24,967 nucleotides of DNA, taken from IMG/VR virus record IMGVR_UViG_3300025466_000164, positions 1 through 24,967 of that record. One strand, given 5' to 3'. The notes beneath the pieces are model-generated. The model had not been told where the DNA came from. It saw only the letters and a list, made by a program, of their open reading frames with translations, and searched no databases. Shown piece by piece: positions 17,611 to 18,853 of the stretch. Every line of letters starts with the position of its first letter. Within the stretch, counting starts at the first letter, position 1. The position numbers were made by a program, and so were the translations under genes. The stretch comes from a virus.

Positions 17611-17640
17611 ACTATAAAGCTATCTTTATACCTATGTCAA
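17611..17640 (-). promoter_or_regulatory. Strong sigma70-type leftward promoter
   Basis: On the minus strand a perfect -35 (TTGACA, complement of 17635-17640) is followed after 17-18 nt by TTATAG/TATAGT (complement of 17611-17617). Transcription would begin near 17604, about 33 nt before the first leftward ATG. This is the best promoter seen in the window and drives the nuclease/SSB operon. Confidence 0.75.
17613..17630. promoter_or_regulatory. Operator-like palindrome between -35 and -10 of the leftward promoter
   Basis: TATAAAG, 4 nt, CTTTATA: perfect 7+4+7 dyad. It occupies the spacer and part of the -10 box of the leftward promoter, the usual position for a repressor that blocks RNA polymerase. 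The Cro/YdaS-like protein encoded just to the right is a candidate ligand. Confidence 0.6.
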
Positions 17641-17653
17641 CAACTATTTTAAC

Positions 17654-17683
17654 TTGCGGCTTAACGTCAGTTTGCGTTAAGAT
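17654..17683 (+). promoter_or_regulatory. Possible rightward promoter with embedded palindrome
   Basis: TTGCGG (17654-17659) and TAAGAT (17678-17683) are 18 nt apart and lie about 20 nt upstream of the regulator ATG. The match to consensus is moderate. The spacer contains the dyad CTTAACG (17660-17666), 8 nt, CGTTAAG (17675-17681), so this promoter would also be blocked by a protein bound to it. Confidence 0.45.
17660..17681. promoter_or_regulatory. Operator-like palindrome CTTAACG-8-CGTTAAG
   Basis: Perfect 7-bp arms separated by 8 bp, 22 bp overall, 21 nt upstream of the regulator start. Size and symmetry suit a dimeric helix-turn-helix protein, and the position within the rightward promoter suggests autoregulation by the adjacent regulator. 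Confidence 0.55.
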
Positions 17684-17702
17684 TGCTTTAGGAGGTTTAT
17701 TG

Positions 17703-17939
17703 ATGAAATCTGAATTATCTAGCAGCAAAATAATTGACCTATTAGGCGGCCCAGCCGAGGTAGCAAGAATGTGTGCAGTTAGTCCCCAAGCCGTAACGCA
17801 ATGGCGGGGGCATGGCATACCTAAAGGGCAGATGGTTGTCTTGGCTGCGCGAGTAGAACGCGCAACAGGGTTTCTAGTAACTAGAAGGGGGATGTTTGAT
17901 GACTATGCACAAATTTGGCCTGAACTTGCTAATAAATGA
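17703..17939 (+). CDS. Cro/YdaS-like helix-turn-helix regulator
   Basis: The ATG at 17703 is chosen over an upstream start in the same frame because a perfect AGGAGG lies 7 nt before it. The 78-residue protein has SSKIIDLLGGPAEVARMCAV then SPQAVTQWRGHGIPKGQMVV: a helix-turn-helix at about 17-36 of the YdaS/Cro type that binds DNA as a dimer. It is the first rightward gene after the divergent control region, the position of cro in lambdoid phages. Palindromes in both early promoters are likely targets. Its TGA overlaps the methyltransferase ATG. Confidence 0.82.
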   Translation: MKSELSSSKIIDLLGGPAEVARMCAVSPQAVTQWRGHGIPKGQMVVLAARVERATGFLVTRRGMFDDYAQIWPELANK

Positions 17940-18853
17940 GAAATATGAATGAGCTGGCTCTTTTCGCGGGTGCTGGTGGAGGAATACTTGGAGGAAAATT
18001 GCTTGGATGGCGAACAGTCTGCGCTGTTGAGTGGGAACCCTATCCCGCAAGCGTATTGTGCGCCCGACAAAATGACAAAATTCTCCCGCTTTTCCCGATT
18101 TGGGATGACGTACAAACCTTTGACGGAAAGCCATGGCGAGGAATTGTTGACGTGGTATCTGGAGGGTTTCCCTGCCAAGACATCTCAGCCGCCGGAAAAG
18201 GAGCAGGAATCACTGGTGAACGATCAAGCATGTGGAAACACATGGCAAGGATTATTGGCGAAGTACAACCCCGCTACGTCTTTGTGGAAAACAGCCCAAT
18301 GCTCACTCTTCGAGGACTTGGAACAGTCCTTGGAGACCTTTCCGAGATGGGGTTCGATGCGGAATGGGGAGTTATATCAGCGTCAGACGTGGGAGCCAAC
18401 CATAAGCGAGACAGAATCTGGATTGTGGCCCACTCCCATAGCTTCGGGCGGCGGTGGAGGAAAAAATTTGGACAATCCCCGTGGTATACACCAAGGCAAT
18501 CCGTTAGCATCGGCTGTAAAAATGTCATCAAACAAGTGGCCTACACCAATATCAAACGATGCGAAAAAAGGTGCAAATTGCGATCCAAACAATACACAAA
18601 ATGGATTGGCTGGAGCGGTTCAAATATGGCCTACTCCAACAGCGCACATGGCAAAAGAAACCAATGCGCCAAGCGAAGCATTGAGGAACGAACCGTCTAT
18701 GGCAAGCCGAGTTGGTGGTCAGTTGAACCCAACGTGGGTCGAGTGGCTCATGGGGTGGCCGCTAGGGTGGACAGACTTAAAGCCATTGGAAACGGACAAG
18801 TGCCATTGTGTGCAGCAACAGCTTGGAGAATCTTAAATGTTGCCAATAAATAA
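17936..18853 (+). CDS. DNA C5-cytosine methyltransferase (Dcm type)
   Basis: A 305-residue enzyme with the family motifs in order: motif I LALFAGAGGG (7-16), a motif II acidic pair EWE (32-34), motif IV GGFPCQDIS with catalytic Cys80, motif VI VENSP (117-121), motif VIII KRDRIWIVAH (157-166) and motif X GNGQVP (285-290). The stretch between VIII and X (about 167-265) is the target recognition region and carries repeats of VAYTN/MAYSN type. It would transfer methyl groups to cytosine C5 in phage DNA, protecting it from host restriction. ATGA overlap with the regulator upstream; ATG at 17945 is an alternative start. A 295-codon ORF is nested in the +1 frame. Confidence 0.92.
   Translation: MRNMNELALFAGAGGGILGGKLLGWRTVCAVEWEPYPASVLCARQNDKILPLFPIWDDVQTFDGKPWRGIVDVVSGGFPCQDISAAGKGAGITGERSSMWKHMARIIGEVQPRYVFVENSPMLTLRGLGTVLGDLSEMGFDAEWGVISASDVGANHKRDRIWIVAHSHSFGRRWRKKFGQSPWYTPRQSVSIGCKNVIKQVAYTNIKRCEKRCKLRSKQYTKWIGWSGSNMAYSNSAHGKRNQCAKRSIEERTVYGKPSWWSVEPNVGRVAHGVAARVDRLKAIGNGQVPLCAATAWRILNVANK
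17949..18836 (+). CDS. Candidate overlapping gene nested in the methyltransferase (+1 frame)
   Basis: This ORF of 295 residues starts at an ATG 4 nt past the methyltransferase's second ATG and ends 17 nt before its stop, so nearly the whole gene is read in two frames. The product opens MSWLFSRVLVEEYLEENCLD, has SLETFPRWGSMRNGELYQR (about 130-148), three WPTP motifs (residues 160, 197 and 227) and a Trp-rich end, LNPTWVEWLMGWPLGWTDL (259-277). I recall proteins with the same start, RWGxMRNG, WPTP and GWTDL motifs annotated in other phages, which suggests the frame is conserved; I could not check. It has only a weak ribosome site and may depend on coupling. It could still be a shadow of constrained methyltransferase sequence. 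Confidence 0.5.
   Translation: MSWLFSRVLVEEYLEENCLDGEQSALLSGNPIPQAYCAPDKMTKFSRFSRFGMTYKPLTESHGEELLTWYLEGFPAKTSQPPEKEQESLVNDQACGNTWQGLLAKYNPATSLWKTAQCSLFEDLEQSLETFPRWGSMRNGELYQRQTWEPTISETESGLWPTPIASGGGGGKNLDNPRGIHQGNPLASAVKMSSNKWPTPISNDAKKGANCDPNNTQNGLAGAVQIWPTPTAHMAKETNAPSEALRNEPSMASRVGGQLNPTWVEWLMGWPLGWTDLKPLETDKCHCVQQQLGES

Follow-up and report, generated by a model that had tools for sequence, protein, structure and literature searches.

Two-polypeptide C5-cytosine methyltransferases are a known kind of enzyme. M.EcoHK31I needs both of its polypeptides in vitro, and its small subunit is read from another frame inside the gene for the large one. The larger subunit of M.EcoHK31I carries motifs I through VIII and motif X, with the recognition domain predicted to lie there as well, and the smaller carries motif IX (PMC3404938). 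M.AquI is also one enzyme from two polypeptides, split past motif VIII, the small subunit having motifs IX and X (PMC3404938). Splits of C5-methyltransferases between motif VIII and the recognition domain, natural and artificial, reassemble or complement well (PMC5944983). The locus described here is very probably one orphan two-polypeptide phage C5-cytosine methyltransferase, with a catalytic polypeptide (alpha) and a DNA-recognition polypeptide (beta) encoded in overlapping frames.

The window, by which we mean the whole 24,967-base virus record that was analysed, carries the alpha and beta ORFs on its + strand. The features discussed below are these:

17634..17939, + strand: upstream gene, Cro/CI-like DNA-binding protein (matches to phrog_35 and phrog_8008)
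17936..18853, + strand: alpha, 305 aa, predicted large (catalytic) domain of a C5-cytosine methyltransferase, with motifs I-VIII and X and without motif IX
17945..17951, + strand: ATGAATG, containing an alternative alpha start (17945) and the beta start (17949), 4 nt apart
17949..18836, + strand: beta, 295 aa in the +1 frame, putative small (DNA-recognition) domain with motif IX; phrog_1008, the frame being open in relatives
18158..18187, + strand: alpha motif IV, SGGFPCQDIS, with the predicted catalytic Cys80 (nearly invariant in alignment A2; alignment with HhaI)
18345..18374, + strand: beta block RWGSMRNGEL, conserved, overprinting alpha between motifs VI and VIII
18401..18433, + strand: alpha motif VIII, HKRDRIWIVAH; selection dominated by beta starts 3' of it, judging from codon-position divergence and substitution classes
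18426..18716, + strand: putative beta recognition region (substitution classes; WPTP units)
18426-18437, 18537-18548 and 18627-18638, + strand: WPTP units of beta, read as VAHSH, VAYTN and MAYSN in the alpha frame
18717..18782, + strand: putative beta motif IX, GGQLNPTWVEWLMGWPLGWTDL, over frozen alpha codons and aligned to canonical motif IX through single-ORF relatives
18773..18805, + strand: alpha motif X, RLKAIGNGQVP (substitution classes)

An initial annotation of this DNA had found the 295-codon ORF (17949-18836) inside the 305-codon methyltransferase ORF (17936-18853), its ATG lying 4 nt past the second methyltransferase ATG (17945) and its end 17 nt short of the methyltransferase stop, and those coordinates are exact. 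The three WPTP copies it had matched to VAHSH, VAYTN and MAYSN are one repeated unit read out of frame. Just upstream, in the ATGA at 17936-17939, the TGA of the preceding gene shares bases with the ATG of alpha, an overlap that suggests translational coupling. The neighbouring genes encode, besides the Cro/CI-like DNA-binding protein, a replication initiation protein, NinB, RusA and terminase. None of the examined neighbours could be recognised as a restriction enzyme, which makes the methyltransferase an apparent orphan. A scan for promoters and terminators gave nothing above chance.

Alpha matches phrog_363 (E = 2.7e-70) and, over residues 7-204 only, PF00145 (E = 8.6e-31). Foldseek places M.HaeIII (1dct) and M.HhaI at the top of its matches, and the AlphaFold model of alpha is like both over about 165 residues. 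The features of PF00145 that alpha possesses are the AdoMet fold and motifs I, IV (PCQ), VI (EN), VIII (RxR) and X, but it departs from the single-polypeptide form of that family, where one chain also holds motif IX and, between motifs VIII and X, a recognition domain: the Pfam match stops at residue 204 and motif IX is found in the +1 frame.

Viral homologues were gathered separately for each protein (80 loci with beta and 80 with alpha, 120 distinct sequences in all), and the expected number of +1 stops was obtained by redrawing synonymous codons from neighbouring genes. Over alpha residues 5-290, the 120 viral loci have a single +1 stop where about 1,035 would be expected if only the methyltransferase were selected, counts that are not independent trials, the loci being related. 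Whole genes should average 8.4 such stops, and 5 were counted in total; within residues 5-34 there are none, as against 115 expected. The +2 frame of the same genes contains 17.6 stops per gene. When the codons of the window's own gene were reshuffled among identical residues, the mean was 6.2 +1 stops, and the frame came out open in 3 of 30,000 trials. The reverse test found no stops in the alpha frame against roughly 2,000 expected if only beta mattered. Bacterial loci, drawn from several phyla and about 32-52% identical to beta, behave in the same way, with one +1 stop against 250 expected and an open frame in 69 of the 70. Even those loci that were added by the alpha search alone, and hence picked regardless of beta, have a +1 stop in only 1 of 46. 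The codon-preserving nulls reject a chance ORF for viral and bacterial loci alike; codon reshuffling and stop counts bear out the earlier impression that the +1 product is not random. The lone core stop among the viral loci is that of L003 (L003:2501-3364), at alpha residue 148 (GTA GCT), and may be an error or a real loss.

The register of the two frames is such that position 3 of an alpha codon is position 2 of a beta codon, and position 1 of an alpha codon is position 3 of a beta codon. Substitution classes were counted in 49 disjoint pairs of loci, the opportunity being roughly equal for each class. In the catalytic part, changes silent in alpha outnumber those silent in beta by 1347 to 358, and over the first 150 or so residues of beta, substitutions are mostly silent in alpha. 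The ratio is reversed in the recognition region (alpha residues 167-262; 507 alpha-silent, 1122 beta-silent) and in the motif IX stretch (47 and 111), and it returns to 223 and 28 in the stretch of motif X. The alpha codons beneath beta WVEWLMGWPLGWTDL are nearly frozen, with Pro as CCC in 119/119 and Gly as GGG in 119/119. From these ratios and the frozen codons it follows that the stronger selection acts on alpha at motifs I-VIII, on beta at the recognition region and motif IX, and on alpha again at motif X. Protein-level selection thus acts on both frames, and the part on which it acts differs between them. Within the RWGSMRNGEL block, beta residues W134, G135 and G140 are at least 90% conserved, and a related block is present in Catdawg and Pharaoh.

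The proposal of the initial annotation that this is a dual-coding gene is thus strongly supported, by the stop counts and by the substitution classes in both frames. It had allowed that the idea would fall if most homologues had stops in the +1 frame or if changes were synonymous only in the methyltransferase frame, and the homologues clearly show otherwise. One could still suppose that the +1 ORF is a by-product of the codon choice and composition of the methyltransferase, with no second protein, and the canonical C5-methyltransferases of IPP48 and Drs3 do have long stop-free +1 stretches over their catalytic part. Those cases may themselves be conserved overlaps, however, and a by-product cannot yield the codon-preserving null results, the handover between frames, or frozen codons such as the invariant Pro CCC. 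We consider this explanation extremely improbable.

Relatives with other arrangements are informative as to what the two frames encode. In all 80 bacterial-genome relatives, beta is read in frame +1 of a methyltransferase. One continuous ORF is matched by both phrog_363 (the alpha family) and phrog_1008 (the beta family) in Gordonia phage Jabberwocky (gp4) and in Mycobacterium phage OldBen, with E values for phrog_1008 of 3e-67 and 2e-72, respectively. Inside the genes of OldBen and Jabberwocky, SET(W/L)PTSGMTRNG...LPTP can still be read in the +1 frame, ahead of its stop. This leftover suggests that the single-ORF fusions may have arisen from the overlapping form, a direction inferred from the sequences. 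Two bacterial loci (L256 and L260) and two mycobacteriophages (Pharaoh and Catdawg) have an alpha that stops past motif VIII and a beta that holds motifs IX and X.

Several other variants were seen. In Mycobacterium phage Empress (L175) and in GigiOuiOui (L178), a truncation or frameshift interrupts alpha ahead of motif VI, but the beta-like gene, which has motifs IX and X, is intact; their near relative OldBen (L179) has one ORF of 543 aa. Six bacterial loci (L207, L211, L215, L232, L248 and L257) have an intact beta and an alpha cut short, possibly through decay or sequencing errors. The genes of Streptococcus phage IPP48 (L182:1048-2286) and Methanobacterium virus Drs3 (L184:1240-2373) encode canonical C5-methyltransferases that belong to a different class and have an in-frame motif IX. 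In both, residues 31-170 are free of +1 stops, with 8.2 and 5.1 stops expected, respectively, and 0 seen. The +1 product of IPP48, which includes ...CSLSDILEEEVDERYFLS..., is phrog_16143 and occurs in 208 phage records; it is possibly encoded by a second, separate overlapping gene.

How beta comes to be translated may be judged from its start. Of the 120 viral loci, 118 retain the ATG at 17949, even though the synonymous Asn codon AAC would abolish it, and the alpha codon 4 nt 5' of it varies (ATG, GTG, TTG, TTA or CTT). A site resembling a Shine-Dalgarno (SD) sequence lies 4-19 nt upstream of the beta ATG in 100 of 119 loci, compared with 33 in a control interval; that of the window itself is weak. 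In eight loci (L102, L103, L105, L111, L126, L139, L141 and L142), the start of beta lies further 5', over different alpha residues, and there M(S/A)W(L/I)xS is retained despite its different register relative to the NELALF of alpha. The persistence of this sequence in another register speaks for selection of the beta N-terminus as protein.

An alternative is that beta is not translated from a start of its own, and that programmed +1 frameshifting yields a single fused enzyme, with its catalytic part from alpha and its recognition region and motif IX from the +1 frame. Dominant selection does change frame past motif VIII, and the single-ORF relatives show just such a fused order. Yet the +1 frame is stop-free from its first codons on and has a conserved ATG, and the M(S/A)W(L/I)xS kept by relocated starts argues against frameshifting as the sole route to beta. 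Moreover, with motif X back in the alpha frame, a frameshift-fused product would lack motif X in most members. We judge frameshifting to be improbable, and separate translation of two polypeptides remains the preferred reading.

Beta itself matches phrog_1008, a family named "DNA methyltransferase", over residues 41-278 (E = 1.3e-36). It has no sequence match in Pfam, NCBIfam or PDB; an unrelated domain was considered and rejected, there being no match in PADLOC either. Its predicted structure when modelled alone is of low confidence (pLDDT 52, pTM 0.20), which might be expected of a domain that depends on a partner but is not positive evidence for one. Direct BLASTP of beta against a single-ORF relative was not significant, so that profile methods were needed, and comparison of profile with profile links beta to the single-ORF relatives over the repeats and the EWMMG region (E = 4.5e-7). 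An alignment of these relatives with four canonical methyltransferases puts their motif opposite RRLTPRECxRLQGFPD, which is classical motif IX. By alignment through the relatives, beta WVEWLMGWPLGWTDL is thereby assigned to the place of motif IX in C5-methyltransferases. Each beta of the viral set has from 0 to 3 WPTP-like units, a range that would accord with variable specificity.

Beta might nonetheless be a separate protein with no DNA-recognition domain, whether a regulator or inhibitor of the enzyme or an anti-restriction factor. Its 150-residue N-terminal part is not accounted for by the small domain, and it contains no recognised domain; but its best-conserved part is motif IX, the very motif missing from alpha, and in actinophages the beta family shares one ORF with the catalytic family. 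A separate role of this sort seems to us unlikely. Among the roles that the initial annotation had floated for the +1 product, those of partner and specificity factor are the best supported, by the presence in beta of recognition repeats and a motif IX that alpha lacks, and that of inhibitor finds no support. It had also mentioned proteins with the same motifs, mostly hypothetical, in other phages. Related proteins do exist, most of them having either no name or the name "DNA methyltransferase" (phrog_1008); one is "g49 internal gene" in Paenibacillus phage Diva.

The two-polypeptide reading is favored because both frames are selected over different parts and both families occur within one protein in the single-ORF relatives, because the ATG of beta and the SD-like site before it are so widely kept (118/120 and 100/119), and because the division of motifs (I-VIII and X against IX) is that of M.EcoHK31I (PMC3404938) and the split lies between motif VIII and the recognition domain, as in splits that complement well (PMC5944983). 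According to this model, alpha would be the large domain, binding AdoMet and providing catalytic Cys80 and motifs I-VIII and X, and beta would be the small domain, with motif IX and a target-recognition region containing the WPTP repeats. We infer that each is translated from its own start codon, the two starts lying 4 nt apart and the amounts probably being similar, and that they assemble physically into a single active enzyme with a specific methylation site, both subunits being needed and beta determining the specificity. The methylation would most likely shield phage DNA from host restriction.

There are at least 599 candidate stretches in viruses and 356 stretches in bacterial and archaeal genomes; plasmids contribute only 5 records. 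Beta has been noticed in places, as the internal gene of phage Diva and as one of paired "DNA methylase" genes in mycobacteriophages. Other records annotate alpha only, RefSeq E. coli PT62 among them, and beta is left out of most current annotations. It is rather likely, though less so than the reading of the locus itself, that these genes form a class of C5-methyltransferases, widespread in phages and bacteria, in which a nearly complete dual-frame gene encodes, in its two frames, the two domains of one enzyme. If so, then the closely spaced starts would set the ratio of alpha to beta, the recognition repeats in beta could change without touching catalytic residues, and many methyltransferase genes thought complete, such as that of E. 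coli PT62, would be half enzymes. Since automatic annotation often gives alpha only, a cloned alpha without beta may be taken for an inactive methyltransferase. The overlap would also account for a large PHROG family whose name comes only from association.

At about 890 nt, with both frames selected, this is one of the clearer cases in phages of a long overlap between genes on the same strand. There would be a functional reason for it, in that each frame supplies one of two domains that complete each other in a single enzyme. The sharing of constraint between overlapping frames can also be examined here, since the frame under stronger selection changes at a known domain boundary.

Literature searches turned up no description of such an overlap in phages, and the known systems resemble it in part. 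M.EcoHK31I (YGGCCR), compared by its described motif partition, likewise has motifs I-VIII and X on one polypeptide and IX on the other, and its small subunit, too, is read from a different frame of the DNA that encodes the large one. Its recognition domain is predicted to be in the large subunit, however, whereas selection here places that domain in beta; here, too, beta spans nearly all of alpha, the starts are 4 nt apart, and no neighbouring restriction enzyme is recognised. The partition of M.AquI (CYCGRG), which gives IX and X to the small subunit, is shared by L256, L260, Pharaoh and Catdawg but not by the window, where motif X sits in alpha and the genes overlap over almost their full length. 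In Jabberwocky gp4 and OldBen the beta family picks up the same motif IX (EWMM..PAG) and recognition repeats (LLPTP), but in one ORF, with the beta-like +1 frame left only partly, as a shorter open stretch. The ShiLan element also hides a second protein in another frame of a phage methylase gene, but it is a mobile insertion with an out-of-frame HNH homing endonuclease and no subunit overprinted on the catalytic domain (PMC11855218). What appears to be new is the nearly complete dual coding with starts 4 nt apart, the repeats in beta, the breadth across phages and bacteria, and the frequency with which beta goes unannotated.
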